Position numbers and translations under genes: made by a program
Notes under the pieces: generated by a model
Databases searched by the model: none
The model's input: only the letters and a program-made list of their open reading frames with translations
Told to the model about the DNA's origin: nothing
In this document: positions 17,364 through 62,154 of the stretch, one piece after another
Layout: each line of letters opens with the position of its first letter
How positions within the stretch are numbered: the stretch's first letter is position 1
From: Utricularia gibba
Lineage: Eukaryota > Streptophyta > Magnoliopsida > Lamiales > Lentibulariaceae
Reading direction: 5' to 3'
Length of the DNA: 64,000 nucleotides
Assembly: GCA_002189035.1 (NCBI GenBank)
Contig: CM007990.1
Span: 1,736,001-1,800,000, forward strand

Positions 17364-18533
17364 CTACCATTTCTTCTCCTTTCCCTTCCTTCTTCCTTGA
17401 TTTCTACATGGCTCTTCCTCGGGATAAATTACTTGGATTGGGATTGGAATATCTTCAAGAGGCACATTCAAGCTTTGAAGTGTAGTCATGTAAGTGAAGA
17501 TTTGTCCTTCCTTTTCTTTCAGAAGGTGGTTGACATTATCTAGCTGCTTTTCCAATCTTTTATTTGCTGCATTGCTAGCCCTTACTTGTGACCTTTGAAC
17601 CGTGAGCTCCGCATTCAGTTGTTGTGCTTGTTTTCTCATTTCTTCAACTTCATTCTTGAGAGTAGCAATCTCGAGTCTAGCATTCTTGAGGTCCTCAACA
17701 ACACCTTCATTTTCCTTCACCAATTCTCGTAGTTGTTCTATCTCTTGTTGCTCAGAAGCCATCACGTCTTCCCCCATCTCCTCATTTTCACTTTCTTCAT
17801 CTATTTGTCTCTACTATGCTCTTTTCCTTCGACGTCCCCATCTTGCTTCCTCCTCTGCATGACTCCACTTTGGAACTCCATGAATATGCTGTAAACCTGC
17901 ATTAGATGTATTTGTAACAACAGAAAAGGAGCATGAATGATAACACAAAATTTACCTCGAACATTCCTAAGCACATGAGTAGTATTAAGCTCTTTTATTT
18001 GTTGCCATTGATAGTTTTTCCCCTGAAGACACTCCATCATATCATCATAGTCCTCTTTAGGCAGTTTGGATAGGACAAGGGAAATGTCCAATTGGCATAT
18101 GACGGTGGTATAACAATAATATTATACTTATACCAATTGGAAAATGCTCTTGGTGCCACATAGAGTAAATGTTGGTGATTGTAAGACTGAAAATACCAAC
18201 CACGAGTTCGGGGTTCTTGCTTCATCCATACAATGCAAAGGAAATGAATTATAGTAGGTTCGATTTCTTCTTCAGTGCAAAATTGCAAGAAAGTAAATGC
18301 TATAAGCAATGCTGATGGTGTAAGTGCACCCAATGGAAGATTCAAGTGAGTGAGTAAGTTGATAAAAAACGGATTCAAAGGAAATTTTATGCCAATTTGA
18401 AATGCCTTCACTGGGATTACCGTCCCTGCCTCATACTTAATGAGAATGACATAGCAGGAGTAGATTCACCACTTGGTATTTCAAGAGTATAATCATGTGG
18501 AATACCATATTTAGCACGAAATAGGTCCACCAT
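17364..18533 (-). pseudogene. Cargo A of MULE-2: Transposase_28-like domain plus coiled coil
   Basis: The minus-strand start at 18533 reads MVDLFRAKYGIPHDYTLEIP, like the start of the cargo A copy at 60718 (MDRFRVKYFIPTDW). A frameshift near 18440 leads into KAFQIGIKFPLNPFFINLLT HLNLPLGALTPSALLIAFTFLQFC. This pattern (RxPLxPF...L..L..P...LTP....L..F..LC) resembles the plant 'putative gypsy type transposon' domain, Pfam PF04195. Next is a conserved junction segment, KEDYDDMMECLQGKNYQWQQI, then after an intron a long heptad-rich coiled coil (EQQEIEQLRELVKENEGVVE onward). The tail NQGRRKGKEKKW is basic. Function is unknown. It is transcribed away from the transposase toward the left end. Only one frameshift is clear, so decay is modest. 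Confidence 0.65.
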
Positions 18534-19327
18534 TTTATCTGAAAATGCATCATATCAGCAAGATACGCATGAATAGCAATATATTTTGTTGAATGTAGCT
18601 CAACTAATATTTCATTTTTCTCACAACAATGTCAACAGAAGTACATATTCTATCATCACTACGAATGAATAAGCCATTACACATTAACATGGACGACAAT
18701 TGTGTAAGAAGCGAGAAATTGCAATGTAATCTTAAAAATCGAAAAGCACCACCAGAAATCAGCAACATTGAAGTTACCTAATGGAGAAGGTCTATCTAAC
18801 ACCTATATTTTCCCAGAGCTTCACATTCGAGCACAATTGTATTGGCGCTGTGTGGTATGCGCTCGCGCAGAAGAAACCCCCAATTTTGATTGGTTTATTT
18901 CAACCTAATTTGCCTCTGTTGAGTAATTTGCGAAACCGGCTGTTTTATTTTTTTAGACATTGTATTACTCTTTCGGATTATACACAATCCAGAAGTGTCA
19001 TACCGTATGTTCGGGACGCTGCATGTAATGAGAAGTAGCGTCCAGGCAAATATCATCCTAAGTAGCGCCCTTCTATCCTTTGAGTGGAAAACATGATATG
19101 ACATAAAGCTAAAGTAAAATGTAATGTAGATTGTACGATTTAATCCAAACCATCCACTTGATGGAGATCCACCGGTCTAGATCTCATGATTTGCTAGCAC
19201 TATTTTGCTTCACCTTTTCAACTTGCTAATAAAAGGGCGTATTCTCATACTTCTTCATCTTTCACTCAAAGCTAGACTCTCATTTATAAGCAAGTCTGTG
19301 AGTGCTGCAAGCTTTGCAAACAAGGAG
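18534..19327. other. Divergent spacer between cargo A and the MULE-2 transposase
   Basis: No gene is recognised. The spacer must hold the promoters of two diverging genes. Near 19033-19070 it carries AGTAGCGTCCAGG and AGTAGCGCCC, the same motif found in the terminal repeats and in the array at 23625-23895. Confidence 0.5.
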
Positions 19328-20452
19328 ATGAATACCAACAGCATCCTCGCAAAGATCTTTTATGGAGGTAACACAATTGAATACCCCAACAATTATAGGG
19401 CATATGATCGGCCACCAATATCCATATGAAGATTTGAGAGTTGTATTTCACTAAATTCTCTTCATGAAGAATTGTATTTGGTTTGTGGTATAGACCCAGC
19501 ACAAAACGAAATCCGAGTAATAATACAGGTTTTTGATTCTTCTTCTAACTGTACTCGAGTTTTGCGGATTACAGCAAACTGTGATTTGTTGTATGCTTAT
19601 AATCCAAGCCATGCACAAATGGGTTTCGACATTTTCGTGGAACGCATTTCAAAGAAAGTCCCTGAAGAAGTCTTTAACGTGGATTTAAATGTTTGCTATG
19701 CTGAAGAAGAAATGAATGAAGGTATGGTGACATAGAGAGAGAAGGGATTTTTTAATGTGTTGTTCCTGAAATTTAGCTTGACCATTATATAATCTATATG
19801 TGCGTAGGTGAGGAAACTCATGAGTACGATGTATACGCTTCTGATGATCCTGTAGGTTGCAATGATATTCCAGTAGATTATATGCAACACTGTGACGTCG
19901 ACTTCGATGTTCAGGGCAATGAGCCACTTGACGAAGATGACAATGGAACTGAGGAAACACAAGAAGAGGACGAGATGATCATGTTTGAATCATCAAATAG
20001 GCGATCTAATGTTGGAGATGGACGATGGATACCTCCATCTTTTATTACCAATAATATGGAAGATGAAGACGAATACTCCATGGATGTCACAGACCCTCTT
20101 CATGTGATAAGCTCTCCTTTTTCTAAACATCAGAGATTTGCATCAAAGGACGCCTTTCATAATGAAATGGTGATGTACACAATCAAAATTGGACGTGAAT
20201 TTAGGACATACTAAGTGCAAGATGGGATGCATATCGAATATCGTTGTTACAAGATGAAAGAGCAAGGATGCAAATGGCGGATTCGCTGTGCATACTTCAT
20301 TCGTGATGCTATTTGGAAGATAACTGCCCTAGAGGAGCCACACACATGTAAACGTTTGGTTCCAAAGTCACTATCTCATTGAAATATCACACCGGCGTAC
20401 ATAGCAGAATATGCAAGACCTTTTCTTGAAGTAGACTTCGGTATGAAAGTCA

Positions 20453-20457
20453 GCATT
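20453..20457. repeat. Target duplication of solo LTR A1, left
   Basis: GCATT, repeated at 21872-21876. Confidence 0.8.
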
Positions 20458-21871
20458 TGATAAACGAAAATTCCAAATGTCGTTGCAAAAATAGAAATTT
20501 CGTTATCAAATAAATTTATAAGCCTTAGTCTACACAAAATACAAATTTAGAAAACTTGTATAGTGGATGTCGAGGTCGATCACAAGGAGATGGTGCTTGC
20601 TAAGTGTTTTAGTAAATGTATGATTTCGGATAACAATAGGTCTTAGTCTAAGCTCGGACCAACAGTGGTAAACAAGTTCGGTAAATAGGATCAGTAAACA
20701 ATATCAGGTCTTAACGCTAAGGTAACAGGTACTGGTTTTAAATCAAAATAAAACTAACATGCCTTAAGGATCTACAGGTGGTGTGGTGCCAAAATTCCTA
20801 ATTTAATCTACCATGTTTCTATACTCACAACTTGAAATAACCTAAGTCTACCCAGGTCATTCACCATATTTTCGGCTAAGTTAGTCCTCCATATCATCAC
20901 CAACCTTACAATTAGGTCTACCCGCATGCAAAGCATATAGAACTAGGTCTACCCGGTTCTACTGGTTCTACCCCGGACTAACACCTACTGCTCCTGTCTT
21001 GATTTGTTGGTTTACCTCTAAACCAAGCATTTAAGTTGTGAAGCTACTTGTTCCCCTCCTTAGGTCTACTCATGGTTTGATAGAAACAAGAGCTAAGGAA
21101 CAATGGTCAATTTTATTAAAACTCCTAGACCCATACCACCATGGCTTACCTTAAGGCACTCATAGGGTTTAGCTACTTATGCTTTGAAGGTAAAAAGTAG
21201 TGGCATTAACAAAAAGAAACGAAAATGTTGAGAACATCGTGCAAAAGTTTGTTGCAGAAACTAAAAACATCAACAAGGTAATATAAAGCAGTAAACAGTC
21301 TGGTTTCCGTCTGCTACTGTTCCTAGACCGGAACAGTAGCGCTGAACTGAGTCTTGATCTTCTTCCTTCAAGCTGGAGGTTCTTCTCCAAAAAAATTCCT
21401 TTTCTTCTTCCTTCTCCTTCAGTTTCTTTGTGTTTGAGTTGGGGTTGGGGGAGAAACCCCCTCGTGTGTGTTCTTTGAAAATTCTAGGGTGAACTCCCTT
21501 TTTGGAACTCTCTCTCCTCATCTTTTCTCTCGCCTCCCATTGTCCAAGGCAAGTACATTCTCTAATAGATCTGTTGCTCCAGGCCCTGACTTGTAGACTG
21601 CCGCCATGACATTGTACTCATTGCCCCCCCCTGCACCTTGGTTACTTGCACGAAATCCAGATTTTTCCTTGATTCTTGGGTTGCTGCTAGACTCCAAAAT
21701 GAGGTTAGATATGGGGTGGGCTAAATCCTTTGATTTAGCCCACTAATTACACTAAAAATCACATTTTCCTAAATTGCCTAAAAACACTTAAAATTATAAA
21801 ATAAACACTTAAAAATAATTAAAAATTTATGATTTTCATATCCTAAAAACATGAAAATTTGTGTGCTATCA
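20458..21871. mobile_element. Solo LTR A1 (family A), 1.41 kb, inside the MULE-2 transposase
   Basis: It starts TGATAAACG and ends GTGCTATCA, so the tips form the short inverted repeat TGATA/TATCA. It is flanked by the 5-base duplication GCATT. Removing it plus one GCATT restores the transposase reading frame exactly, which proves the bounds. It is related to the LTR at 29440-30587: both have TATCAAATAAATTTATAA near the left end and a shared GATC...AAG.AG.TGGTGCTTGCTA segment. There are no internal genes, so it arose by LTR-LTR recombination. Confidence 0.9.
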
Positions 21872-21876
21872 GCATT
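21872..21876. repeat. Target duplication of solo LTR A1, right
   Basis: GCATT, as at 20453-20457. Confidence 0.8.
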
Positions 21877-23624
21877 GTTCAACAAGTTATCAAAGAGAAA
21901 ATCGGCTATACTGTCTCCTATTATTGGTCATGGTATGACATGCCAAAAAGCTATGAAATTATTTATGGGATATGGGAGTCTTCAGTACCCCTTCTACCTC
22001 AATTTCTTTTGGAAGTACAACTTAGAAATCCAGGCACCATTGTGGAATATCAACATAGGCAGCCGGACATATATGAAACCAAGGTACTAAAATACGTATT
22101 TTGGTCTTTTGGACAATGCATTCAGGCATTCCATTTTTGTCGACCTGTGATCACGGTGGATGCCACCCACCTGTATTCGCGATACTCTCATAAATTATTG
22201 ATTGCCGTAACAGTAGACGCTTCTGGTCTCCTTTTGCCTCTTGCATTTGCGGTTGTAGACAGTGAAAATGATGACTCGTGGTATTGGTTTTTTCAGTTAC
22301 TGGATCAGCATGTGGTTGCTAACAGGGCATGTTGCATTATATCAGACCGGTGCCCCTCTATAGAAAATGCGACATCAAAAGTTAGGGCATTCATGCCTTA
22401 CAAAATACACCTAGAAGCATGGGAGTACCTAAATCGATTACAATCTGAATCCTGGACTCTAGCATATGATGGAGGAGCAAGGTGCTGTCACAAATATTTT
22501 AATGCTCATCTAATGTTTAATCAACATGATTGCATATTATGTAGGTGCGGGACCTTAACAATAAATCAATTTGAAGGCATGAATGGAGTATTGAAGAGCG
22601 CGAGACACCTACCCCTGTGCTCATTGGCACAGGTACCATTGATTCTAGATGCATATCCACAAATATAGTTACCAATGCTTTCCTTTTTTATGAGCAGGCT
22701 ACATTTGCGCGATATGAGCACTACTTTTTTGATAGACTACAAAAAGCACTACATCAATGTCAGCGACACATTATGTTCGCAGACCAACCTCATAAACTAT
22801 ACTCAAATTGAGATAAACCAATCCCTCATGCATCAATAAAGATAGTTAGAAAATGTTCAAAAGAAGATTCTGGTTACTACTCGTAGGAAAAATGGAAAAC
22901 AAAAGAAGTTCATAGTGATGGTTAGTCAAGGCACGTGCGAGTGTAGGAAGTGGCAAAATTTTGGAATTCCATGCTCCCATGCCCAATAGGTACATGCTCG
23001 ATTCCGTTGATTATGTATTTTATCTTTTGCATTATACTCACTTGTAACTTCATGTTTGAAGGCATCCCGAATGCTAAACATTGATCCTAAGGATCTGATC
23101 GATTCCATGTTACATCTTGACCAGCAGATTCGAATATATGAGAATCAAATTCAGCCATTGCAATATGAGGATAGATGGCCACCGGCACCGTTTTTAATGG
23201 TCCATGACTCCAATCGTAAAAAAAATGTCTACCGTGGGAGACCCCAGTCAACAAGGTTTACAATGACAATGGATTATCAAGGTAGAAAATCGGGACGATA
23301 TACGGGTAGACGGGACGAGTCACTTGAAACAGAGTTCACTCAAGAAAGTCAGTCATAGAGACATCGTGCATCATTTCAGGCATCGTACCATCCGAACCAA
23401 TACCCCATCGATGTGCAACCTAGATCATCGATGCATTATTCTACGACACAAGGAATGTATGATACACATGAGTCCGGTACCTCTACTACACAGAGTGTTC
23501 GTGGGAAAAAGTTATGGGGTTTTTCTTTGTAAGTAAAAAATGAATTAGCATGTCATTATCATTGTATTGTAAAGAATGTCATATAAATTATTTTACACTA
23601 TGCCATACACAAAACAACACTCTT

Positions 23625-23895
23625 TCACCTCTTGGGCGACGCATAGACACGTAAATAGCGCCCAAGGATGCTGAAGGTGTCGTTTATATCCATAAGCAAC
23701 GCCCATAGCATCCTTGGGCGCCGCTTATACATCTAAGTAGTGCCCATGACATTATGAACCAATGCCCAATGCATTTCTGGGCGTCGCTTATATCCATAAG
23801 CAACACCCATAGCATCCTTGGGCGCTGCTTATGATTTGTAAGTGACGTCCAGGAATGTCTAGGCGCTGCTTAACATAGCAAACAACGCCCTTTGC
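23625..23895. repeat. Imperfect repeat array with GGGCGxCGCTTA motifs, MULE-2
   Basis: Units of about 40-80 bases alternate the motif CTTGGGCGCCGCTTAT with its inverse, ATAAGCAACGCCCATAG. The array lies between the end of the transposase and cargo B. The same core, AGCGCCC or its complement, recurs at 17115, 19035 and 19065 and, as GGGCGTTGCTT or AGCGGCGTCC, in the right terminal repeat near 28560-28600. The density of CG-containing cores in otherwise AT-rich sequence is striking. It may be a protein-binding array. Confidence 0.7.
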
Positions 23896-24374
23896 TTAGA
23901 GAGTCAGAATTTTGTAATAATAAACTGTTAATTATTTACTTCTTTGCAATTTGTAGTCATAATGTTCTATTTTGTTAGTAAAAATATACTCAAGACCTTG
24001 TAAAAAAAAATTCTAGTTAATTTTTTCAAATATTGTTGGAAAAATACAAAATACTTCAAAAAATTAAATATATACCTACCTCACTTAAATATACACCAAC
24101 TCCCTTTTCAAACCCTATACCCTCTTATTCTCTTCTCCTCTTCTCCTCTTACCCTCTTCCATCGCATCTTCACCAACTTTCACCTTCAAAATCTCCACCT
24201 TCTTCTTCACTGTGTATGTAAATTTTTCTTCACATAACTGCTTCATCTTGAGAAAAATCTTCTTTTGATAAGCACAACATTTCAAATCCAACCAACTCAT
24301 TCAAGGTATATGATGTCTTTCTGTTTTTTATATTTATTACTAACTCCACTAACATTCGTAATGATAGATGACTT
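23896..24374. other. Spacer and leader of cargo B in MULE-2
   Basis: AT-rich sequence, then a CT-rich stretch (24110-24210) typical of a plant 5' leader. I see no separate gene. A splice acceptor close to 24367 is possible. Confidence 0.4.
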
Positions 24375-25480
24375 TTGGAGACAAGATTAGACAAAAGATA
24401 CTTAGTTCCTGAAAATTTCGTTATATCAGAGAAAGAAGAAGATGAACAAATTTCAGATCAACCACCACAACGTGTTGGCACTCGTGCTTTTGCAGTTAGC
24501 ACCGAACATTTTAGATGTGGGTTAAGGTTACCTATCCAACCCTTTGTAGAGTCCGTGCTTCGTTCGGTGCGGCTTCCATTATCTCATTTAACACCAGCTT
24601 CTATTGGAAATAGTATTGCATTCATGAGGTTATGTGAAGATGATGGATATCCGCTTAGTGTTGGTGCATTGTTTAGCATTGCAAAGTGTTCCAAGGTTGC
24701 TCACACAAATCATTTCACAATATCATCAAAGGCAGGAATTAAAATAGTCATAGGTTTATGAGATTCTTATGGAGATTGGTGGACTAATTTTGTATGAGTC
24801 ACTCCACCGAAAGACATGCAAATAAGAATACCTAGACATCTTTCAACCTCATCCATTGTTGGAAAACCAACAGGTAGAAAATGCTTCCTTTGCAAGACTC
24901 TTTTAATTTTCTTAACATTTTGTATGTTTTCAACTAATAGTTTTTTTTAATATTATAAGGTATCCAACTATTGGATGAAGATGACAAACAGTGTCTTAGA
25001 GCATTACTAATAGCAAAAGACATGAGATGGAGAGATATTGAACCACCAATTTCAAATGTCAGAGGTGCAATACGTATTTGGTGTGGCACTCCTTGTAGGA
25101 TAAGAACAGTGCAGACTCATCTCGAAAAACATGATGTAGAAGAAGAACATACAACACATCATGATGTTTATGAGGAGGAGATGGTTGGTTCATCGGCTCC
25201 ACAACAAGTAGAGGATCATGATGTTGTGCAATTGCGTTCTGAGCTTGAGGAGGCCAGAAAGGAAATAGACCAATTGAAGAAAACCATCTACCAATATGAA
25301 ACAAGATATCCAATGTTCACTTTGCAGTAAATTGATGCTTCAAGTCCAAAGAAACTAATCATTTTAGATATTAACGGTCTACTTGCAGATGTTGTGTACA
25401 TGGACAAGGGACGTGCAGCAAGAAAACCTAACTGCATCATCGAGCGAAGAGCAAGTAAGTAGTACAATTTTGTCACTCTA
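24375..25480 (+). pseudogene. Cargo B of MULE-2: Transposase_28-like domain fused to an FCP1/NIF-like phosphatase, truncated
   Basis: The N-terminal part reads RYLVPENFVISEKEE, then FAVSTEHFRCGLRLPIQPFV, then RLPLSHLTPASIGNSIAFMR LCEDDG. This is nearly the wording of the copy at 56925. In-frame stops follow (TGA before DSYGDWWTNFV and another after it). Past an intron, EDDKQCLRALLIAKDMRWRD is the conserved junction, then a coiled coil (QLRSELEEARKEIDQLKKTI). After an in-frame TAA at 25328 the phosphatase begins with KKLIILDINGLLADVVYMD, the HAD motif I region. It carries DxN where classical FCP1/SCP enzymes have DxD. The Athila-like fragment starting near 25585 removes the remainder. The first listed codon only opens the visible frame; the true start is probably upstream. 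Confidence 0.75.
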
Positions 25481-25584
25481 ACTACTTGTGCAGTGACGAC
25501 ATTCTTTTTTTTTATTACAGTTTATTTAATACCAAATTGTAGCGAATTTATTAAAGGGCACCTGCTCTTTTAGTCTTGAACAGG

Positions 25585-28271
25585 TATTTGGGAGGCTGTT
25601 AAAGTGCCACTCGACAAGGCACCAGCATCATTGCCAAGGTGATCGTGTTCTTTTTGTGGGCGATGATGAAGAAGCTCCCATCAATTTGGGATGGTGAATT
25701 GCAACCCAAATGCACTTCATCACCGCTAAAAATGAAAGAGTGCTGCCATTTGCTTCTCTCATAACCAAGCTCGCCCAACATCTCAAAGTGAACCTTGACA
25801 AGCAGACCCCTCAGGTAGACAATTATTTTCGTTATCTAGATTTGGATGACCTGTTTTCTAACAGCTACCTGAAGGAGGTTGAGGGGAAGGCCATATTTGT
25901 TTAAGCGGGTAACAAAAGTACCATTACTTCTATGCCTCCCTCAATTGTGAATCCATATGGTGCGCCAACAGACTTTCCTCTTAGCACTACACCTTCAAGC
26001 CCCACCAAACACACCCTTCTGCTAGCTATTCAAAGTCTCTAGGAACAGGTTTCTGCACTTTCAACGAAACTGGACACTCTGATGGCTATTGCTTCACACT
26101 CCAGCGTGCCCCATGACTAAGGTACCCTCCGCTGCACTTGATGATGAGGACATCCTCAAAATTAAGTGTGGGGAGGAGTTTATGTTTCTTTTTATTTTCT
26201 AGTATTTTCTGGGCATTAGGACTTATGTGTTGAACTGTGTTGAATTTTTTTTATGTTTTCATGCTTCATGTTTTGTTTTTCTTTTGTTTTTTGTTTGTGA
26301 AAAATCCCCACTATGCTCCTCAAGTACATTTGCTTCCATGAATAAGGCTAGAATTTTAAGGATTGATCATGCTTAGATTCATGAATGTCTTGTTGCTAGG
26401 AAAATACTTCAATTATTTTTCCTTCTAGATATCAAGCTTTTGTTGCATGTTTTAGGAAAGATTATGCCGTGGCTATGATTATATTTTCAGTCCTTGTATA
26501 TATTATGTTGTGAATAATTTTTTGCTGCTCATATAGTGACCTGACCGAGATTGAAAAAAAAAGAGAAGAAAAAATACAAGGGGTGCCAAAGGTAAGGATG
26601 TTTGGCGAAGCCGTGGTTAACACCACACATAAGGTTTCATAATTCAAGCTCTCTTCCCCAAAGCGGGGACCTCTATCAAAAAAAAAAAAGAGAAAAAAAA
26701 AGGTCTTGAGTCACTATAGCATATGTTCTTTGCTGTTTTTGCCTTGATGATTTTAGTGTATAAGTAGTCATTAGTTGAGTCTTATCCTGATGCATGCAAA
26801 CTTAAGTGGGCTGCCTTAATTTGATTGAAGGATAGGAAAAGAATTGGAGTAAATGCCTGCTGTAGGAATGAACGTACCTTATTCGTGACTTAGGTTCTAC
26901 CCTTTTTCGTGGATTGCTATGATTTTCATATTTGAGGACAAGCATGATTTAAGTGTGGGGAATATGTTAAGTGTCATTTTCTAGTTAATTATTAGATATT
27001 ATTATGTGTTAATTATGTATGAAGTTGCCCAAATTAAGAGTCTTATTATTACGTATTTGATTTTTACTAGAAAATTCTTATTTTCCCGTTTTATGTACAT
27101 TTTATGCCTTTTTTTTCACACTTTAACCGAGACATGTCAGGAGACTGTCATGGAGTGTTGCAGGAGGGTGGTCAGAGTTTGACTTTTCGTGCCTTGTACG
27201 CGACTTGGAACGATTGTGGGCGGAAGACTTACACTAATCAAGGCCCCTGACTTACGGCATGTCAGAGTTTGCAGCAATGATTGGGCGCAAACTTGCACGC
27301 AAAAAAAGTCTGGTGGCACACGCAAGACAGAAGGAATTATGGGAAGGGGACCCAATGGAGTTAATGCACGTGCGGAGTGATATAAAAGCCACTTGGAGCA
27401 CTTAGTTTCGAACTTTTACCATTTTTCCTTTCTAGACTTAGACCTTTTGAGTTCTTCCTCCCCTCAAGGAGGAAGAACACTTAGCTTACTTTTCGTTTCT
27501 GTTTTGATGGCCCTTTTGGGCTAAAAACCTTTAGTTTTTTGGGAAGTAGATGAAGTTTCCTTCTAAGTCCTGAGCAATACACTCGATTCTTCGTTGAATT
27601 GATTTCGGATTCTGCATACTTCCATGCGTATTGTTGTAGTCTTTTTGTAATGAACTCTTAGTCAAGGTTCATGAGTAGCAGGCCACTCCTCGCGGATTTT
27701 GGTGAAGATCAAGGTGAAGAGCACCAATTCCAACCCCGTCGGTTCAAGGGAAGTAGCGGATTGTTTGTGGCCTAGGTACCACGATAGTGGACAGGTTGTG
27801 ACCTCGGACGTGCCACTGGCCATTGGCAGCAGCTGGGCACACGCGCGCAATTCGGTTTTGAAGGCAATCGAAGGCAATCCTCTTGTATTCCTCATCGTCC
27901 AAGGGGGAATCACATGAGGCTATTCCCGTGCCTCCTTGTCAATCAGAGTGTAAGGGAGAGTAGGCTATTCCTTACTCTTATAACCAGCTATTAGGAAGAA
28001 ATCAGTGAAAACCGAGGCAAGGATGGACAAAGGCCGGAGATGGAGTCTTATTCCCAGGAACTACGTCCCGTAATCAAGGCCCATCACTTAGGTTGTAACT
28101 TTCATTTCTGCATTTTAAAAACACCCTTTTATAAAACCATGACATTTTGTGGAAGTTTCTTACAAAACACTTTTCACGAAAAACAAATCCCTATGATCGA
28201 TACTCGTACTACGCTTTCTAGTGTCTTACGTTTTAAATATTTAAAATTTGTTGAGGAAACGACGCGCAACA
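25585..28271 (+). mobile_element. Athila-like Ty3/gypsy fragment: 3' internal region plus 3' LTR
   Basis: The left edge is approximate. The frame at 25710-25904 (HFITAKNERVLPFASLITKL, then NYFRYLDLDDLFSNSYL) resembles the plant transposon-protein domain found after pol in Athila elements (Transposase_32-like). Further on, CCTCAAAATTAAGTGTGGGG near 26155 and AGCATGATTTAAGTGTGGGG at 26941-26960 are polypurine-type sequences; the second lies directly before the LTR. Gag, protease, reverse transcriptase and integrase are absent, so the element is 5' truncated. It interrupts cargo B. Confidence 0.75.
26965..28271 (+). repeat. Athila-like LTR (family C), copy 1
   Basis: It begins TGTTAAGTGTCATTTTCTAG and ends GACGCGCAACA. 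It aligns along its length with 46701-48001. It contains a likely promoter, GTGATATAAAAGCCACTTGG (27376-27395), shared by both copies. Confidence 0.85.
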
Positions 28272-28396
28272 ACACCATAAAATATATCTCATTTTATTAC
28301 AAAGTGTTTTTAATAATATATAGTTTAAATACAAATCAAGTTATATTTATGATTGTTGTTTAAATTACTAATATACACAATGTACTTTTATCATGA

Positions 28397-40984: not shown

Positions 40985-40989
40985 TAGAG

Positions 40990-41930: not shown

Positions 41931-41944
41931 GTTTAACTTGTGAT

Positions 41945-45744: not shown

Positions 45745-45971
45745 TAACCGCTCGGTTCCGGTTACACTTTAATTCGAGATTATCGGTTCTAATTTTGAAC
45801 CATAAGCGTCCGTACAGTTCCAGTTCTGGTTGGTTCAAGGTTTCAGAATCCGGTTCCAAACTTAAATTGGAACTATGGTTCACGGCAAACCGTGGTTTTG
45901 GAACCGAAGGGTCGCTAGAACCGTATGATTTCGAATTGAAACCGTACGGTTCAGAACCTGTTGCACCACTA
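45745..45971. repeat. Right subterminal CGGTTCC-rich region of hAT-1
   Basis: CTCGGTTCCGGTTACA, GTCCGTACAGTTCCAG, AATCCGGTTCCAAAC and AACCGTACGGTTCAGAACC. It closely matches 63037-63241 of hAT-2 (CGCGGTTCCGGTTACAG, GTCCGTACGATTCCAG). Confidence 0.75.
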
Positions 45972-48001: not shown

Positions 48002-48007
48002 AATTTT

Positions 48008-51102: not shown

Positions 51103-52600
51103 CATGTTGGGTTTCTCGTAGACATCGTATGTCTCAAAAGCAGCGGAATTTTAAAAATTTTGAGAAACCTCCAACGCAGATCTTAGAATACGGTATACAT
51201 CAGACATAGAGATGTTCAAAGTACCTTTCAGATGACTCCATTGTTCACCAACCGCCAATAGCAGATGGACTCTATGGTATCCACACGTGGAGCACTCCGT
51301 CGATAACCTTTTCAAGGCTCTTGAATGCTGGTCGAATTTCTCAGGTGCTAGTAGAGAAAAACGTCTCCTTGTGGATTAGTCTCAGAGAGCATGAACACCT
51401 TCGAGCACAACTCAAGATCTAAATCTTTTGATGATAGATATTTTGTGACATATCAAATCATATCTATATGAGATCTTTTATTTTGAGTTTAATCAATATT
51501 AATCTCAAAATAATTCTCTATTTAATTTATCCACTTTACCAATTACATCTCATGTAATTGTGTCATTCTATTTTATATCGATGAGTGACTCCACTATTGT
51601 GTGTGACCCTATAGACTTCCTCAATCAAGACCGTAATAATGGATTTATTAATTAACTCTTAATTAATCAAATCCATCATTATCGATCATAAGTGATGTCT
51701 AGCAACATATCATGATCCCTAAGATTAAAGAATAATCAGGTGAATTGATTGAGCCTTTCCATGACTAGCCATCATCACCATGCAATGAACAGCTTTCATC
51801 ATACTTATATCTCATTCGGTACCAGAACATGGGTGTGTGTCTTTTTGATGTATCGAACTTATAATTGCATTCAAGTACTAACACTCAATGACCTACTCAA
51901 ACAATTCGAGTGTCATTACCCTGGGCCCAGGACTTACTATTAGGCTTTGACGCAATTACTTGAGATATGATCTCATCGCTAACATGAGTGATGAATCCTT
52001 TATTGATCAATCAACTATCTCCAACCTTAAGGAGTCACATCCCTACTCATCCATACTAGGCAAGCCATGGTTAGGCTCCCATTAATAATGAGCAAAAATG
52101 TGAGCTTAAGATCAAGATAACTTTGTTGACCTCAAGTCTAAGCTTACTTGCAAAGCTGTCATATTTGAGATCTTGCTACTGACACTTGGTTAGTATCCCA
52201 TAGTAGCATCTCGAAGATGAGTCATCCAGTTAATTGATTCTCTAATCGACACCCACACATAGGTTCTAGTAATCTCATTACATCAATTGTGAGAACCATT
52301 GCCTAAACTGTTTAGGGAACTCAATGTGTGCCAGCTTATCTGTATTTGTGATATCCTAATTTCACAAATACTCTAGCCAGGGAGATTTAACTTGATCATG
52401 AGTGCTTAAAGAATTTCACATTATGATCTCATCATAATTTCTATAGCACATAGATCAAGTAGAGGATTTTATCAATGATATAAATTTGATTACAATTCAA
52501 AGTAAATATCAAAAGATAAGATTTTTCAATGAGTTGATTGTCTCATTGAATGTTTAAAAAATTTAAATACATAAATCAAAGTTTATGTTGAATGTTGTTT
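51103..52600. repeat. LTR-like sequence, probable solo or truncated LTR, right edge uncertain
   Basis: It begins TGTTGGGTTTCTCGTAGACA and continues CATCGTATGTCTCAAAAGCA, a start seen in plant LTRs. It interrupts Athila integrase at AAATCA|TGTTGGG. I find no coding content and no convincing CA end with a repeated AATCA, so the right border is a guess. Confidence 0.45.
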
Positions 52601-53287
52601 TTTGTTGTAAAACAGATTAGTAAAAAAAATTAATATTTAAAAAATTCCAATTTATGTGATTATTCGAGAATGAAATATATGTTTTATATTATTCACATAA
52701 AAATAAATTATTAATTTTTGATGTAGACATATATTAAGCTCACTTGTTTATTGAATTATAACTCAATAGATTTATATGCTAAAATAGAATAACAATAATT
52801 CACAAAATATTTTAACATTTCATTATCTATATATTTTTCTCAATAAATAGTTATGCATTGCCAAACTAATGTATTCATATTGGTAACGCAATGTATATTT
52901 AAACATAAGTATATATTTAAAATGTTCATGTGAAGACTACTGTGGCAGCATCATGTCTGAAATTTTTATTTAAAATATATTTGTTATGTATATTTTTATT
53001 TCAACGGCTAGTACAAGCATTTGTGACTGTGCAGACTATGGAGTTGCACATGGTTTTGAAAGTAACAGTTGCTATTACTTTATTAATAAAATTTGTCTAT
53101 ATATATGATATGGTTATCTTATAGTTTTCCACTACTTTATCTTATTGTCTCATCACTCATTACTAGAAATAATTCTATTTCAACTTCTACGTGATTGGAG
53201 GTACTCTCAAGTGTCAAGTTTCAGATTTCCACTTGGACGACATTGGTGAAGCCTACAAGGTAATAGGTTTTTTTTATTTTTTATAGA

Positions 53288-55401
53288 ATGGAGGGGTCTG
53301 GTTTGCAAAATTCTTCTCAAGCTTCTCAAACTGATTCTACTATACCTTGCGTTTTTGAAAATGAAAGAGAATTTTCTTTTGGGGAAGACCTTCAATTTTT
53401 ACAAGAGCTTGAATGTGATCCTTTACCCGAACAAGATGATTTTTCTAGTCCTCAAGAAGTGGGTTCTTCTACCTCATCGAGTCTCCTTTGTCATAAAAGA
53501 TTGAAAAACACTAGTAATGATTCTCTGGATATTCAAGAGCATTTTGTTTTTTGTAATCCCAAAAAAATTTCTTGCAAACATTGTGGTAAAGAGTACAATT
53601 TCATAAAGGGTTGGGGAACCGGTACATATAAGAGGCATGTTAAGGAGAAGCATAATGATAAATTACCTCAGTTTCGTCAAACTAGATTATGTTTAGGGGG
53701 TGACAATAGTGTGGGATTATCTAATTTTTTTTTTAATTATAAACTTTTTCAAGTGTGGTGCGTTATTTGATACTTAATGAACTTCTTTTTTCATTAGTTG
53801 AAAAACCTTCTTTTAATGATATGTTGAAACAAGCTCAACTGGGATACAAAAAATTTTCTAGGAAAACCGCACATCATATGGCACTCGAGGATTTCAAAAA
53901 TATACATGACTCTTTAATTTCTACTTTTAAATCTCTACATTGTAATTTTTGTTTGACTTGTGATGGTTGGAAAGGTTGTAACAATGAGAGTTATATTGTT
54001 ATCACATGTTCGTGGGTAGATAATTCTTGGTGTATGCAAAAATGAATTTTAGCTTTTCAAGAATGACCATCACCACATAATGGTTTTTCTATTGCTAAAA
54101 TCATTAAAAAGGTCACAGCATTTTATGGAATATCTGATAGGATTTTTTCTATTTCTTTGGATAATGACTTTGCAAATACAAATGCTATAGACATTTTGAA
54201 AAGTAGCATGAATCCTATGTTAAATAGCATTTTTTTTTCCACACTAAGTGCACTTGTCATATATTAAATTTGTGTGTTCAAAATGATTTGAAAGAATGCG
54301 AAAATTTTTTAACTCCTATTTATGATTTAATTAGTATGATTAGAACTACTCCTAATAGAAGAGAAGATTTTAAAAGGATTTGTCAAGAAAGGAACATCTC
54401 TTATCGTAAATTCAAAAGTGATTGTTCAACTAGATGGAATTCTACATATAACATGTTACAATTTTTTATTCCTTATGAACATGTTCTTATTGAATTTTGT
54501 GAATCTGTCACAGGTTACAATTTCTTGACTCATTCTATTTTTGAAAAAAATAAGAGGTTTAGTAAATTTATTAGAAATATTTTATTCTTGTACTAAGATT
54601 TTGAGTGTTATTTACTACCCAACTTCTCAACTTGTGCTTTCATGTATTTGTAAAATTTCGTTTGCTTTTTATGACCATCAAAGTGATTGTGATTTTTTGG
54701 GAGATGTAGTGCAAAAGATAAAAAATAAGTTTTTGAAATATTTTGATGAAATCCCACATTTGTTTCTTATTGCACCTGTTTTGGATCCCCGGGTTAAGTC
54801 TAGAAGTATGAAAACATTACTTGAATGTATTTCGGAATCATTTAGTGCGGATGATGTTGCTTTTTCCATTAAAAATTGTGAAGAAATAGATGTTGATGCC
54901 AATAATGTTCTACGTGTCATGTATTCCCTTTATGCATCTAAATATAGTGATCCTAGTGTTCCTATTCCTAAAGCATGTAACAATTCGACATTTGATAGTC
55001 GCAATCCAATGGACATTATTCGTAGGAAGCATAGTTCATTTGTGTCCTCCTCTTCATCATCTTCATTAAACTCTGTTGATCAAATTACACTTTACAATAA
55101 TACTCCTATTGTTGAGGGTGTTGATGATGACAACTTTGATATATTGGGTTGGTGCAAGACAAATTCTACTACTTACCCTGTCTTGGCTAGAATGGCCAAA
55201 GATCTTCTAACACCTTCAGTATCTACAGTGGCATCCGAAAGTGCATTTAGTGCAGGGGGACGAGTTCTTAATCACAAGCACTCCAAATTGAACGAAGAGA
55301 CTCTGGAGGCATGCATTTTTCTAAAGGATTGGGTGGAGGCTGTGAAAAGAAATCAAACCTTATCCTCAAGTTCAAGTGAAGATGAAGTTGAAGACTCCTA
55401 A
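53288..55401 (+). pseudogene. hAT transposase (zf-BED, hAT dimerisation), frameshifted
   Basis: The start MEGSGLQNSSQASQTDSTIP is followed by a BED zinc finger near 53575-53655: ISCKHCGKEYNFIKGWG then TYKRHVKEKH. Core parts: KPSFNDMLKQAQLGYKKFSR, LTCDGWKGCNNESYIVIT (a catalytic Asp region), RIFSISLDNDFANTNAI, and KFKSDCSTRWNSTYNML. VLDPRVKSRSMKTLLE follows. The C-terminus has the hAT dimerisation signature YPVLARMAKDLLTPSVSTVA and SESAFSAGGRVL, then an acidic Ser-rich tail. Frameshifts or stops occur near 53760, 54045, 54070, 54240 and 54595. Domain order is complete, so decay is recent compared with hAT-1. Confidence 0.9.
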
Positions 55402-55469
55402 TTTGGAAACATTTAGTGCTCCATGAAATAATATTACTTTGTAAGAAAATGTTGTATTCATGTTTTTAA

Positions 55470-56230
55470 TTAAAAGTGGGTGCCTGGAATTCGATCACAG
55501 ACTCGCAAACATCCTCCCAAGGCACCCACATGAGGGAAGAGGGTGTCTGGAAAACTGTCTCAAATACTCATTCCCAAGCACCCATATAACAGAGGTGGGT
55601 GCCTAGAAATCACTCTTCTCAGACACCCACACAATGCATTATTTTGTAGGTGCCATCCAACTATCTTTCTTGGACACTCTCCCGAGGCACCCACATGAGG
55701 GAAGAAGGTGTCTGAAAAACTGTCTCAAATACTCCTTCCCAGGCACCCATATAACAGAAGTGGGTGCCTGGAAATCACTCTTCCCAGACACCCACACAAT
55801 GCATTATTTTGTAGGTGCCATCCAACTATCTTTCTTGGACACTCTCCCGAGGCACACACATGAGGGAAGAGGGTGTCTAGAAAACTGTCTCAAATACTTC
55901 TTCCCAAGCACTCATATAACAGAAGTGAGTGCCTGGAAATCACTCTTCCCAGACACCCACACAATGCATTATTTTGTAGGTGTCGTCCAATTATCTTTCT
56001 TGGGCACTCTCTCGAGGCACCCACATGAGGGAAGAGGGTGTCTAGAAAATTGTCTCAAATACTCCTTCCCAAGCACCCATATAATAGTTGTAGGTACCTG
56101 GAAATGGCCTTACTCACTCTTTCTAGACACCCACACAAGGCATTATAGGTGCCTCGAAAAGGATATCTGACTCTCTTTCCAGACACCTACACGAGGCAAT
56201 GTGGGTGTGTGGAAAATGGTCTAAGCAATA
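55470..56230. repeat. Tandem array, about 165-base period, with GGGTGCCTGG and its inverse
   Basis: The phrase AGACACCCACACAATGCATT starts at 55621, 55786 and 55951, exactly 165 bases apart, with a diverged unit at 56125. Each unit contains GTGGGTGCCTGGAAATC, AGGCACCCATATAAC, GAGGCACCCACATGAGGGAA and GTGTCTGGAAAACTGTCTC, so the same 8-10 base core appears in both directions. It lies between the transposase stop and cargo B. Confidence 0.9.
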
Positions 56231-56924
56231 GGTGAATATTCTTTATTTATTGAAATTAATTTGTAGTAATTAGGATATATAAAATCATTTCATTTTCAGA
56301 TTTTTATATTCCAATTAATGCACCAAAAAAATTTTATATTTATGAAAATTAAGAATACCTTCAAAGATTGCACAATCCCCAAATTTCGGGTACGGGTGCC
56401 TAATTTTTCATTTCTTCTGCCAGTCGCCCACATTAGCGATTCTGGGTGCTTCAAAATTGGAGTATTAATTACACGATGGATTCGCATCAATTCAAACAAA
56501 CGGCACACACCTTGTCTGAAAATAACGGAAGCTATTACCGACAACCTACGAAAGTAGGGATATCATTGCGCGTAATCATTAGCTTATGATTTGGTGTATT
56601 AAACCAAATCCCCACGCACCCATACACAGCGCTACACATCACCACCCCACTCCCCACGTTGTCAATTAAGACAACCCTAATCCCCACCCATGTGGTAAGA
56701 AAATTTTCTTACCTCTTTCCCCCTCCCCCCAGCCGAAAGCGACCGGACGCCCCCACAATCCCATCACCTACTTGGAGTGTTCTTTAAATTAAACAAGGTA
56801 AGTGATTTATTTTCCACCATGGGTTGCTGATCTATGTTCCAATTTGTAGTACCTTGTCGAATTATTGTAGTTTGAATTTTTATACAATTCTTATGAGTGT
56901 TTGTAGATACACACTTCTGAAAAA
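56231..56924. other. Promoter and leader region of cargo B in hAT-2
   Basis: No separate gene supported. A CT/CA-rich, C-rich stretch at 56600-56760 looks like a leader, followed by a possible intron (GTAAGT at 56799, acceptor near 56905). Confidence 0.4.
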
Positions 56925-58896
56925 TTGAGAACTAGATTCTTGATACCGGATGAATATGATATTTGGGACAAAGAACCGGATAAGTTGATTGAGAATGAAA
57001 TTCCAAAATGTGTGGGTCCAATGAGATTTGCCTTAAGCACGGAACATTTTCGTTGTGGTTTGCGCTTACCATTATTGCCCTTTTTAGAAGAAATATTAGA
57101 ATGTTTAGAGATTCCTTTATCTCATTTGACTTCAAGATCTATCTCATATGTGTTGGCCTTTATTAGTATTTGTGAGGAGTTATGTCTTGAGGTGGAACTT
57201 CACTATTTTTTTGCTGTGAGTGTATACTCTATGACTCTAAATAAGAACCACTACACCCTAAAGGAGAAAAAAGGGTTGGTACCAGTAAAGGATGTGAGAA
57301 GAGGATTTGAAGAATGGTAGACAAGTTTTGTTTGGATATGTCCTCTAAAGGAAACCAAATTTCCTCAAATTTATACTAATTCGAGCGAAGTAGGCAAGGC
57401 GAAAGGTAAATCTTGCTTTGTATTGTTAGAAGAAATATGAATAAAAATATTCCATATTTTTATTGAAATATGGAATATTTGTATTGAATGTTTTTATTGA
57501 AGATATTATGATTGAGTGTTTTTTTTAATCTACTCTTATTAAAACTATTGTGATTGAATATTTTTATTCAATATCCTTTTTGAATATTTTTACACTTATC
57601 ATGTTGAATATTCTTATTCAATATTTTTGTTAAATATATTGTTAATAAATTTACTTTTATTGTAGGATTTGATACCTTGTCCAAAAGAGATATACAAGAT
57701 ATTATTATCCTCTTCTCAAGTATGCAAAGGAGTTTTGTTGACATTTTTCCACCATTTATGGATGCACCGGGGACAAAACGCTATTGGTGTGGTGTGTTGA
57801 AAAATCATAGAGTCTTCCAAAAGAATGAAGACTTGTCTAGGAATGAGAGTACACAAGATGGGAATGATGTTGAAGGGGACGAGATCACACATGGTCTCGA
57901 TGATGTCGATGATAGACCTGAATTTATAACAAAGGAGAATGAAGAGCTTCACTACAAATTGGATTGGTATGAGAGTCGTTGGGCATATACCGGACCTCCT
58001 TTTAGTGCCTCTGAGCCTCAACGAAAGCTGATTATCTTGGATGTAAATGGTGTGCTAGCAGACATCGTTTACAGGGCTGGAGCGTCAAGGTCACGAATCC
58101 TCCAGATAAAATCATATATGACCGATCAGGTATGTTAAAACAATACTTATATTTGTGTGTTATGTGCATTAATGATTTGTGAGATCATAGGTAACTTTTG
58201 GTGCAAATTATGCAGTCTTTCTACGTCCACATGCCCGCGATTTTATTAGGTGGTGTTTGGATAATTTTGATGTAGACTTATGGTCATCCCGTGGGGGTAT
58301 GTGTGCTGCATCTTTTTTTTTGTTAGTATTTATAATTGGTGCAAACACTTGCAAGTGATTTATTTTGTAAGGAGCAACTACAAGCAATCACTAAATGGGT
58401 CTTTCCACCTTCGTTATTCAACAAACTCATTTTCGTATGGGACCAAACCATGATGACGGACACCGGCGTACATGTTCACAACAATCATAGCAACACGGTT
58501 TACATGAAGGAGTTGGGTCGTGTATGGGCTGTCAACAATGGATTGAACACAAGATATGACCGTCACAATACCTTATTAATTGATGATTCACCTCACAAAT
58601 CAATGAAAAATCCGGTAAGTCATTTTTTGCTAGTATACTCTTGCATACACTTGGTTATACCTCAAAACTAACCCTTCAATTTTTTGGAAAATAATGTTGT
58701 TTTTCCAAGTCCCTATTCGCATACTAATAGGGATGATGCATCACTCAATGTGGATGGTGAGATGCGGACTTTCCTTGAAGGGTTACAGTATACTAATGAT
58801 GTTCCAAGTTATGCTAATGAGAATCAAATAGGCCAGTCTCCCATACGTGAGGGACATGTCTTATGGGAGTATTATGCATGCCTACAGGATTGTTAG
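56925..58896 (+). pseudogene. Cargo B of hAT-2: Transposase_28-like domain fused to an FCP1/NIF-like phosphatase
   Basis: The best copy in the window. N-terminal domain: RTRFLIPDEYDIWDKEPDKL, then FALSTEHFRCGLRLPLLPFL and CLEIPLSHLTSRSISYVLAF. TAG replaces a Trp codon at 57318 (EEW-stop-TSFVW; the MULE-2 copy has DWWTNFV). After an AT-rich intron, LSKRDIQDIIILFSSMQRSF and MDAPGTKRYWCGVLKN form the junction, then ENEELHYKLDWYESRW. The phosphatase part has RKLIILDVNGVLADIV (motif I, DxN), FLRPHARDFIRWCLDNFDVD LWSSR (58215-58295), VYMKELGRVW, and LLIDDSPHKSMKNP (motif IV). The tail has NNVVFPSPYSHTNRDDASLN and SPIREGHVLWEYYACLQDC. FCP1/SCP enzymes act on RNA polymerase II tails and Smads; here the second motif I Asp is Asn, so catalysis is doubtful. 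The gene has at least five exons. Confidence 0.82.
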
Positions 58897-60717
58897 AAGG
58901 AGCCTCTGATTTCTAAAGAGCCGTCCCATTTATTTTCAATTAGACATACACTTACGAAATGTCACATTTTGATTATGCCATTGAATTTATTTTAAAATAA
59001 ATGAATAAATTAATGACAATACCTACGAAACAACTTATTTATACTGTATGGCACTTATTTTGATTTTTTAAATTAATTTACAGGGACGGCACATACATAA
59101 AAATGTTTCTTGTAGGGGCCGCCAAAATATTGAAATACTATTAAATTTGATTACAGATGTGAATTGTTTATTAAACGATTTCAAATTACCATTGGCATCC
59201 ATATTTTAAAAAATATTTTTTCGTGCATAATTATTTTAAATAATTTTATGCTAAAACACAGAATTATAAGTGTGTTGTTGACGTACAATCACATTCTAAT
59301 TTAAAACATTTTTAGCAAAAATATGATACGAATGTAAGTTCTTGTCTAACTTAACCTTAGATGTTGTGACGTTAAGTAGAGTAAAATATTTGAGATACAA
59401 TATAGATATCGTGTGAAAAAACTTAATTTTTATAATCCTACCTTAAATATTCAGCACATTACAATATTTATGATGATAAACGTCATCATCAAGGACCATT
59501 TATATTAAAGAAAACATAAATTTCCATTTCGTGGTTTAGGGTTTTCAGGGTTTTAGGGTTTATGGTAAATGAAATATCTGAAATATTCCTGTCTTTTTAA
59601 TATGTTGCAAATGTGAAATTTTGGACAACACATACGTAACATTGCATTTTGTAAGGGCGGCAAAAACAATTTATGGAAACACTCTCAAATGTACTTATGG
59701 ATGTGAATTGTTTATTAAATAATTTACAATTCAAATTGACGTCCATTAGATACAAAATATTTTTTGTATCGAATTTCTATTTAAAAAAATTGGTTCAAAA
59801 ATCTGAAATTACAAATGTATAATTCAATTGTAATATAATGACATTAAAGTTTATAAATAATCATCCACATTTACATTAGACACTAATGTATCTTGTTCTC
59901 TAATTTAAATCAAATATTATGATGCTTTATAAAATAAATATTGAACATATATTTGCAAAGAAACGTGGTTTTTATTATTTTTAACGTTACAATATTGGTG
60001 ATGATAAACTTCATTACTATGAACAAAAACTACTAAAATTTTAAATGTGTAGTATAATTAAGGGTTTAGGAAAATTAAATGTGTAATAAATTCTCCTCAT
60101 TTTTTAAAAAAACGTAAGAATAGTTGGATTTTGAGAAGGTACATACAAACACACGTAATGCATAGGTGTTGATGAAATATATCCATAACCTTTTTCGTTT
60201 ATCATTTTTAAAATAATGAAAATTTGAAATTTGGGACGGCACATCAAACAATGAGTATTTTATAGGTGCCGCAATTTTTTAATTATTTTAAACAATTGAT
60301 TTAGACTATATATGGATATAAATTTTTCTATGCAATATGCTTTTCTAAAAAAGTTGGCGTCCACTATATAAGTGTACAACCCTACCTAGTTTACATCGCC
60401 TTTTGCTGCATACAAAGGCTCTTCTTATCATTGTCATCGCGCTCCTGAAAACCCAGAATTCGTCGGCTTAAAATCCGGTAATCTTGTTATTGCAACTTAT
60501 ATTATTTTTTGTGAAATGTATTCCATGCATTTGTTGCTGTAGTATGCGTTATATATTAAGTTGGGTTTAGTTATTAAAAATTGTCTTTTCATATAATTAT
60601 GTATTTAGTTGGGTTTAGCTGCGTTTTTTCATCGTTAATATCATGTTTGTTTTGCTATTTTCCATTTCCTTATGTTTAGAATTTCATTCTTATTATGTAT
60701 CCTTTATTGATTAGGGA
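58897..60717. other. Spacer between cargo B and cargo A with GGGACGGCAC/GGTGCCGC motifs
   Basis: No gene seen. Three similar modules occur near 59082-59120, 59625-59665 and 60234-60280. Each has GGGACGGCACATA or a variant, then 20-30 bases, then TGTAGGGGCCGCC, TGTAAGGGCGGC or TATAGGTGCCGC. The end of the stretch (60400-60480) resembles a 5' leader with a splice donor near 60477 and an acceptor near 60714. Confidence 0.55.
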
Positions 60718-62154
60718 ATGGATAGATTTCGTGTTAAATATTTCATCCCAACCGATTGGTTGACAAGTCCTGCTCCGCAAAACACACCTCTTGATGCCAA
60801 TCCCCCTCATGAACATTCCAATGCTTGGCTTGTGTCTCGTAAAACATTTGATGTTGGTCTTAGGCTACCTATTCATCCCTTTGCTCTTGATGTGCTCACC
60901 TACTTAGATTGTCTATTGGGTTTTTAGCACCATCTTCCTATAGTATCTTAGACTTCTTACACTTGTGTGAAGAAGAATATGTAGAACCTTCCTTGTCAAA
61001 TTTTTTAACTTCCAAAAAAAAGCTCCTACTGGAACATGGTATTTTCAAGGATTACCAAATACTAGATTTTATCAAAACCTACCTAGAACTGTGGCACGAT
61101 GGGATAAACTTCTTTTATGGATTGTACCACCTACATCTTTTGAAATTTCAAGGCATTATCCATTAACATATCCTGGGGATGATGTTATAAATTCTCGTAT
61201 TGAAAAAATCAATGTGAATGAGGAAACTAGACATGCATTAAAAAGTCTTTTGCAATCAAAAAGATATATGACTGAAGACATCATCCCAAAGTATGCTCAA
61301 ATTCGAAGTAAGTCTTGTTAATTTACATTATTTTTCCAATATGTTATTTTACTTATTTATTCAACACTATGACAGCACTTCAAAACATTCATGGTGTCGT
61401 TGAGTGGCGGTCTACACCAACATCAAGGCGAAATCGTCATCAGCTTGTTGTTTATGAACAACCCATTCCGCTAACCATCGATAGCAATGAACAACAGGTA
61501 AATAAAGTAGGAATATTATTTAAATTTTTAATTTTCTCTTCAAATAAATAAGGTTTGCAATATAAAAAAATTTTTGTGTAGAAGAATTCTGAACAAGAAA
61601 ATGGAGATGAGGAGAATGAAGTACCTATTCATGAGAAGGCTGAAGTGTATATTAATGAGGAGCTCTCAGTTGCACGCCAACATGACAAAGAGCTCATTTT
61701 AAACCAATATAAACACATTCAACGGATGGAAAATGAGGTAATAAAAATGAAACTTATTTTGCTAATACATGTGATAGTTGTTTTTTTATGTTTTCTAATT
61801 TAGTTTTTTTTCTTCTTTAGATAACAGATCTGAAGTTTCAGATTCAAAAAAAAAAACAGAATGGATGATTTGGTAGCACACCAATCTGTATACAAGGTTG
61901 AATTGAAGATAAAAGGCGATGAATTGATTGCTGGACAACAAAAATCTATCAACTTTCAATTGGAAATAATGAAGCTGAATGAAAAAATACAGGTGTTAGA
62001 AGAAGAATTACAACTTCACAGATTGCAAGCTCAATTGAATGAAAACGATGTTATCGCAATGGCTCAACAAAGAGACATACCTTCGACAAGTGCGGGCACA
62101 AACAAAGATAAAGGAAAAGGTAGAGGCAGACCCAAAGGAAAGGAAAAAAAATGA
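60718..62154 (+). pseudogene. Cargo A of hAT-2: Transposase_28-like domain plus coiled coil
   Basis: The start MDRFRVKYFIPTDWLTSPAP is followed by SRKTFDVGLRLPIHPFALDV. A frameshift near 60905 leads to FLAPSSYSILDFLHLCEEEY, and another near 61085 to RWDKLLLWIVPPTSFEISRH YPLTYPGDD. The junction NEETRHALKSLLQSKRYMTE DIIPKY matches the other cargo genes. Later exons give VEWRSTPTSRRNRHQLVVYE, a Glu-rich stretch, and a long coiled coil (INFQLEIMKLNEKIQVLEEE). The C-terminus GKGRGRPKGKEKK matches the basic tail of the MULE-2 cargo A. No phosphatase part. Function unknown; a DNA- or chromatin-binding role is a guess from the GRPKGK motif. Confidence 0.7.

Follow-up and report, generated by a model that had tools for sequence, protein, structure and literature searches.

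Why do two unrelated superfamilies of DNA transposons carry the same two genes? The question is raised by a stretch of 64,000 nucleotides of the Utricularia gibba genome (GenBank assembly GCA_002189035.1, contig CM007990.1, positions 1,736,001 to 1,800,000; hereafter the window), in which a Mutator-like element (MULE-2) and two hAT elements (hAT-1 and hAT-2) contain one or both of two related genes, termed cargo A and cargo B. An earlier note on this DNA had proposed that the pair forms a module that benefits its transposon, possibly as a regulator or anti-silencer. Searches of 100 Mb of sequence from this one genome show that the association of A and B with MULE-2-type and hAT-2-type elements recurs across copies, but the unit that spreads is B and not the pair. 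On balance, B is probably a transposon-encoded regulator that moved between DNA transposon superfamilies and was kept for its benefit to the carrier.

Domain architecture of the cargo genes

The N-terminal domain that the earlier note had recognized in both genes corresponds to the Pfam family Transposase_28 (PF04195; hereafter T28). It scores above the cut-off of 26.2 bits in the single window exons of MULE A, MULE B, and hAT-2 B, and also in the full reading of hAT A (41.5 bits), and is present in both genes and both superfamilies. In A, T28 is followed by a coiled coil and a lysine-rich basic tail, as the note had described. The phosphatase-like C-terminus ascribed to B is a NIF domain (PF03031; cut-off 21.8 bits), which is joined to T28 by a linker or coiled-coil-like stretch; the architecture is the same in the hAT version (E 2e-8, 34.5 bits) and the MULE version (E 1.2e-6, 28.8 bits). 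The hAT and MULE homologs share 31% identity in the case of A (E 1e-26) and 33.6% over the entire length of B (E 2e-74). Together, the Pfam matches and pairwise alignments exclude a chance resemblance. All copies of the elements and their cargo in the window are degenerate; the gene models are homology-based and approximate, and the full sequences of A and B used in the scans were read exon by exon and partly merged from several copies.

In every copy of B from the motif scan, the NIF domain has D-x-N-G at motif I, a departure from the catalytic form DxDx(T/V), which suggests that the domain may bind phosphate rather than cleave it. Host NIF/HAD genes at C4:3539000 and C98:1243000 have this form of motif I (LD-x-NG-LL) in common with B, as well as a second NIF block, but lack an adjacent T28 in the short pieces fetched, and they look like ordinary host genes; such D-x-N-G genes are the likely source of the C-terminal domain of B. 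Neither A nor B has a Pfam match to DUF1985 or DUF287, the domains of VANC, and the plant mobile domain PF10536 is not among their Pfam matches. Searches of the viral families in PHROG gave no match, nor did a comparison of the late NIF block of B with solved structures. The structure predicted for T28 from the window exons (pLDDT, the predicted local distance difference test score, of 48.7) is too poor for a structure search.

Carriers in the window

The elements and their genes are arranged as follows:

16290..29078, unstranded: MULE-2 element; terminal inverted repeats (TIRs) at about 16290-17205 and 28386-29078
17364..18533, minus strand: MULE-2 cargo A; single exon with T28, coiled coil, and basic tail (PF04195, E 3.6e-6, 27.6 bits)
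19777..22668, plus strand: MULE-2 transposase region (PF10551, E 9e-15), interrupted by an insertion at 20458-21868
24372..25551, plus strand: MULE-2 cargo B; T28, coiled coil, and start of NIF (PF04195, E 3.5e-9, 37.2 bits)
40985..45971, plus strand: hAT-1 element; tips TAGAGGTGTGATAGGTTCG / TAGTGGTGCAACAGGTTC, target duplication 7/8 (ACCAATGG/AGCAATGG), middle of the transposase deleted
41947..44912, plus strand: hAT-1 cargo B, with an insertion at about 42163-43486
52559..63241, plus strand: hAT-2 element as present; ends with the right tip CACCTCTA (63234-63241) but lacks the left one
53267..55401, plus strand: hAT-2 transposase; hAT dimerization domain PF05699 and hAT-like RNase H PF14372, with a BED finger slightly below the cut-off
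55478..56402, unstranded: hAT-2 spacer; 15 copies of AG[ACG]CACC[CG], some of them within a 165-bp tandem array at 55514-56105; candidate recognition sites
56907..58893, plus strand: hAT-2 cargo B; T28 (31.8 bits), coiled coil, and NIF
60715..62151, plus strand: hAT-2 cargo A; T28, coiled coil, and basic tail, with the T28 frame disrupted in this copy

Elements were assigned to the MULEs by a MULE transposase, TIRs, and a target duplication of 9-11 bp, all of which are present in MULE-2. Its duplication is perfect (10 bp, GGATAACAAC, at 16280-16289 and 29079-29088, the only two occurrences in the window), and the description of MULE-2 as a Mutator element with A and B inside its long TIRs is borne out. 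The identical gene order is seen in a sibling copy at C2:2970300-2983400, which lacks the insertion in the transposase and contains the remainder of B and a right terminal repeat. An origin of A and B from a hAT element nested in the MULE is excluded, because the MULE copies conserve the relative order and strand of A and B and because MULE-2 B forms a clade of its own. The 1.4-kb insertion in the transposase (20458-21868) is multi-copy and flanked on both sides by TCAGCATT; the sibling copy L017 represents the empty site. Another multi-copy insertion of 2.7 kb (25552-28272) truncates B, and a 1.3-kb part of it (about 26966-28272) recurs widely in the genome.

For hAT elements, the diagnostic features were a hAT dimerization domain, matching tips, and an 8-bp duplication. 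In hAT-2, the transposase, B, and A lie on a common strand, and the earlier claim of a hAT element with both genes holds for its domains and right tip but not for the left tip. Homology to its relatives ends at 52559, adjoining a high-copy repeat; relatives at C414 and C199 retain the left tip TAGAGGTGGGTTCG. The bordering sequence (51105-52545) is a piece of that repeat, with about 40 copies listed at 88-96% identity. The hAT-1 element is a deleted member of the same family, which carries B between matching tips, as proposed, although its target duplication is imperfect; a 7/8 duplication is found also in its relative at C375. The insertion in its B gene has a relative with 79.6% identity at 33219-34454. 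The hAT-1-type subfamily (L021, with relatives at C375:568k, C213:3327k, C328:33k, and C451:4021k) possesses transposase and B but lacks A, and A is therefore dispensable or supplied in trans.

Distribution of B among transposon superfamilies

T28 is matched at least 129 times in the genome, and the late NIF block of B 142 times. Of the 129 T28 matches, 61 are followed by a B-type NIF exon on the same strand 0.5-3 kb downstream, mostly at a distance of about 1 kb, whereas control placements yielded only 8 (upstream) and 2 (opposite strand). Among 18 T28 loci sampled outside the matches to MULE-2 and hAT-1/2, 15 lie in a transposon context (14 by their own neighbors and one by similarity), which contradicts the possibility that the homologs reside nearly all outside transposons. 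The remaining three comprise two A genes of the hAT clade, with no transposase within reach, and one locus without a context call.

PIF/Harbinger elements, which were assigned by a DDE_Tnp_4 transposase, a Myb/SANT gene, TIRs, and a TWA duplication, account for ten of these loci, nine with a transposase upstream and one with only the Myb/SANT gene typical of the superfamily. Their order is transposase, B, and then the Myb/SANT gene on the opposite strand. TIRs with identical TWA duplications are present at C460 (GGGCGCGTTTGGTTGCTG / GGGCGTGTTTGGTTGCTG, TTA at both sides), C505 (same tip type, TAA at both sides), and C413 (GGCCTCGTTTGTTAGG-type tips, TAA at both sides); both genes have tblastn matches, and PF13359 and PF12776 occur in relatives. 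The hAT loci consist of a hAT-2-like pair of B and A and a distinct second family (hATb) at C402:1730682-1736332, whose tips are accompanied by a 7/8 duplication (ATTGAATC/ATCGAATC). One locus represents a second MULE lineage, whose transposase is 45% identical to that of MULE-2. Two further loci resemble Retand: one has an antisense T28 open reading frame (ORF) beside a gypsy integrase, and the other is similar to it. The Retand-like layout of L052 and L070 (C328:342500-351200) comprises a gypsy integrase and an antisense T28 ORF of 383 amino acids. Searches with PF02992 (CACTA) gave no match, but neither did the control genomes, so that nothing follows for CACTA.

Thus, the presence of the same two genes in two unrelated superfamilies is corroborated, but the concept of the pair as a spreading module is not: A was found together with B in MULE-2-type and hAT-2-type elements, whereas B occurs without any detected A in the PIF/Harbinger elements, the second hAT family, and the second MULE lineage. 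With transposases of B-carrying elements as queries, T28 or B-type NIF was found nearby in 21 of 28 PIF transposases (>=75% identical), 19 of 24 hAT transposases (>=70%), and 8 of 11 MULE transposases (>=60%), i.e., in about 75% of the closest copies per superfamily, against a chance expectation of 2.6-4.6%. B has therefore nearly reached fixation in these particular lineages, although the figures do not extend to whole superfamilies.

The near-fixation of B, whose gene lies next to that of the transposase in all carrier families seen, would also fit a role in transposition itself, with B as a partner or dephosphorylating enzyme of the transposase or as part of the transposition complex rather than in transcription or silencing. 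However, the transposases of MULE, hAT, and PIF elements are unrelated, which makes a common partner surface improbable, and the motif copies of hAT-2, hATb, and PIF2 described below are mostly located in the internal spacer instead of the termini. We consider a role in transposition rather unlikely.

Phylogeny and selection

In the tree, A and B fall into two distinct clades with support of 98/92 and 99/96, each of which holds MULE and hAT members, so that the split between A and B predates their distribution. Within the B tree, the sequences of the second hAT family cluster with those of one PIF lineage (100/99). In approximately unbiased (AU) tests, monophyly was rejected for all hAT B (p 0.019) and for PIF B (p 0.012), and a duplication of A and B within hAT was rejected as well (p 0.013). 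The earlier note had left the choice between independent capture and transfer between superfamilies. B did switch superfamilies, but a clade of hAT B and MULE B, as expected for a single transfer of the pair, was also rejected (p 0.004), and such a transfer is therefore not the simple history. The B genes of both MULE lineages could be kept in one clade (p 0.22), and separate gains by MULEs are not claimed. Counted as the fewest changes on the tree, B changed superfamily at least three times, whatever the direction of the transfers. The rows of the tree derive from degenerate copies in a single genome, two of them on long branches.

Between lineages, the ratio of nonsynonymous to synonymous substitution rates (dN/dS) amounts to 0.26-0.32 in MULE A, 0.37-0.38 in hAT B, and 0.37-0.40 in MULE B, and falls between 0.26 and 0.47 across most lineage comparisons. 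Recent copies mostly show values of 0.5-0.9. The codons were anchored by tblastn, and any intron codons included would push the ratio up. The pattern fits constraint while the genes are mobile and decay after insertion.

The same numbers bear on the view that A and B are captured passengers of the Pack type, which have no function for the element and spread through copy number only. Plant MULEs and other DNA transposons frequently carry captured gene pieces (PMC13317346), and both the broken window copies and the elevated ratios among recent copies would agree with this view. It is difficult to reconcile, however, with the retention of entire multi-domain genes over deep lineages in three superfamilies, their near-fixation in families, the low ratios between most lineages, and the motifs specific to the lineage of B, and we give it little credence.

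A spacer motif that follows the lineage of B

The arrays identified with Tandem Repeats Finder differ between several carriers but have a common core. The repeat units around it measure 165, 56, 46, and 147 bp, depending on the family, and agreement is confined to the core with its short flanks. When all 7-mers were counted per element, independently of the core, AGGCACC, CAGGCAC, or GGCACCC ranked among the leading words in hAT-2, hAT-1, hATb, and two of the three PIF2 elements; in the third, AGACACC and CACCGAG took this place. AGGCACC was the sole 7-mer enriched in 4 of 13 representatives. The form AG[ACG]CACC[CG] is found 8-15 times in elements of the hAT-2 type, 8 times in hAT-1, 12 times in hATb, and 4-13 times in PIF2, against an expectation of 0.3-1.0 per element; simulations never reached the counts of the hAT and PIF2 elements, and pieces of MULE, gypsy, host, and background sequence contain 0-2 copies. 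Tandem duplication inflates these numbers, yet the hAT-2 copy at C1, for which no 165-bp array was reported, has 11.

In PIF1, the top 7-mers are AGCACCG and GCACCGC, and AGCACCG is present 8-12 times in each of the six elements but 0-2 times elsewhere. In hAT-2, the copies take up the spacer that separates the transposase from B (55478-56402), whereas those of PIF1 are more scattered and partly lie within coding sequence. Flank consensus sequences agree across superfamilies (TTCCAGGCACCCACAT in hAT-2; TTCCAGGCACCGCAA in hATb and PIF2). Inverted pairing, which would accommodate a dimer, is seen for some copies but is not clearly more common than everted pairing. PIF1 and PIF2 belong to the same superfamily but differ in their motif, whereas PIF2 and the hAT elements share a motif across superfamilies. 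The form of the motif tracks the lineage of B and not the superfamily of the transposase, as predicted for a site recognized by B but not for one bound by the transposase. Candidate recognition sites are CCAGGCACC(G/C)CA for the B of hAT and PIF2 elements and AGCACCG for that of PIF1.

Several observations weigh against this interpretation. The motif was seen only after the tandem arrays had been found, even though the count of all 7-mers recovers it too, and its link to B lineages is based on few independent lineages. MULE elements carry B without either form of the motif. The B-free control is limited to 3.5 kb of mostly coding PIF sequence, which has no motif. Conservation at motif columns among hAT-2 copies does not differ significantly from that of GC-matched controls (0.927 vs 0.909; 52 of 300 controls as high), and the dN/dS between recent copies, mostly 0.5-0.9, weighs against a regulatory role of B more generally.

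The non-significant excess in conservation and the proximity of the motif to B are also compatible with spacer sequence that was carried along with B at transfer, or with sites for a host factor, either of which would make the motif uninformative about binding by B. Passive transfer fits poorly with repeat units that differ between families and match solely in the core and its short flanks, and host-factor sites do not explain the difference between PIF1 and PIF2; both possibilities seem quite improbable.

A proposed regulatory function

The shared motif copies lend indirect support to the regulatory or anti-silencing role suggested in the earlier note, and we infer from the sequence of this one genome that B may bind DNA sequence-specifically and counteract silencing. 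The T28 part of B would bind the motif copies in its own element, with B pairing through its coiled coil, either as a dimer or, in hAT-2 and MULE-2, perhaps with A. At the motif, the NIF domain might alter the phosphorylation state of the transcription machinery, e.g., of an RNA polymerase tail, or its occupancy, and the element would be transcribed or evade silencing.

A bolder version, which we consider conceivable but hold with less than even confidence, is that of a portable cis/trans module. The T28-NIF protein and its motif would have been passed among hAT, PIF/Harbinger, and MULE elements, with relatives of T28 in Ty3/gypsy; new hAT and PIF carriers would have gained motif copies in their spacers, and different superfamilies would share one switch for de-silencing or transcription, possibly with cross-activation. 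If true, silencing and escape would be negotiable across superfamilies and not family by family, and accessory genes would have evolutionary careers of their own. The motif provides a concrete candidate binding site for a T28-NIF protein.

Other features of the window

An ORF of 367 amino acids at 36726-37829 resembles, by eye, a core-2/I-branching (GT14) glycosyltransferase and is apparently an ordinary host gene. The region 38887-39994 contains a direct duplication, whose copies are about 760 bp apart and 93-96% identical.

Comparison with known systems

T28 (TRP28, PF04195) has been described in antisense ORFs of Retand, a group of Ty3/gypsy elements (PMC11963269, PMC7264820, PMC6317226). 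In a survey of 2025, it was present in 97% of the Retand clusters, with nothing alike outside transposable elements and no similarity to other known transposable elements (PMC11963269). Like A and B, the Retand ORFs are extra genes of plant transposable elements that contain PF04195 and have been proposed to encode DNA-binding regulators. By contrast, NIF is not among their reported domains, whereas T28 is carried here by hAT, MULE, and PIF/Harbinger elements, mostly in fusion with NIF. No description of T28-NIF genes in these superfamilies was found in the literature searched, which consisted mainly of open papers and did not cover Repbase. With T28 conserved as a gene in three superfamilies of DNA transposons, candidate donors or recipients of the domain are available.

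VANC, encoded by VANDAL elements, binds short motifs arrayed in the non-coding parts of these elements and removes their methylation (PMC5735166). As in the case of B, it is an accessory transposon gene, its short motif is present in multiple or arrayed copies in non-coding parts of the carrier, and motif and protein lineage change together. The arrayed motif has an analog in the hAT and PIF carriers of B, where binding by B is putative, but is absent from the MULE carriers. VANC differs also in that it contains DUF1985/DUF287, has an experimentally shown function, and is confined to one superfamily (non-TIR MULEs), whereas B has neither domain and its function is putative. B thus appears to resemble VANC in logic, without homology in any domain tested.

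The plant mobile domain (PMD) of MAIN, MAIL1, and MAIL3 occurs in Gypsy elements, has been captured by MULEs, and is tied to a PP7-type phosphatase in the silencing of transposable elements (PMC5418596, PMC7156037). It shares with B the presence in Gypsy and MULE elements, the association with a phosphatase, either as a fusion or in trans, and the tie to silencing, but the domains do not match: PF10536 and a PP7/PPP phosphatase in one case, T28 and NIF/HAD in the other. By this comparison, the closest functional parallel of B would be VANC, whereas the closest parallel in parts would be the plant mobile domain.

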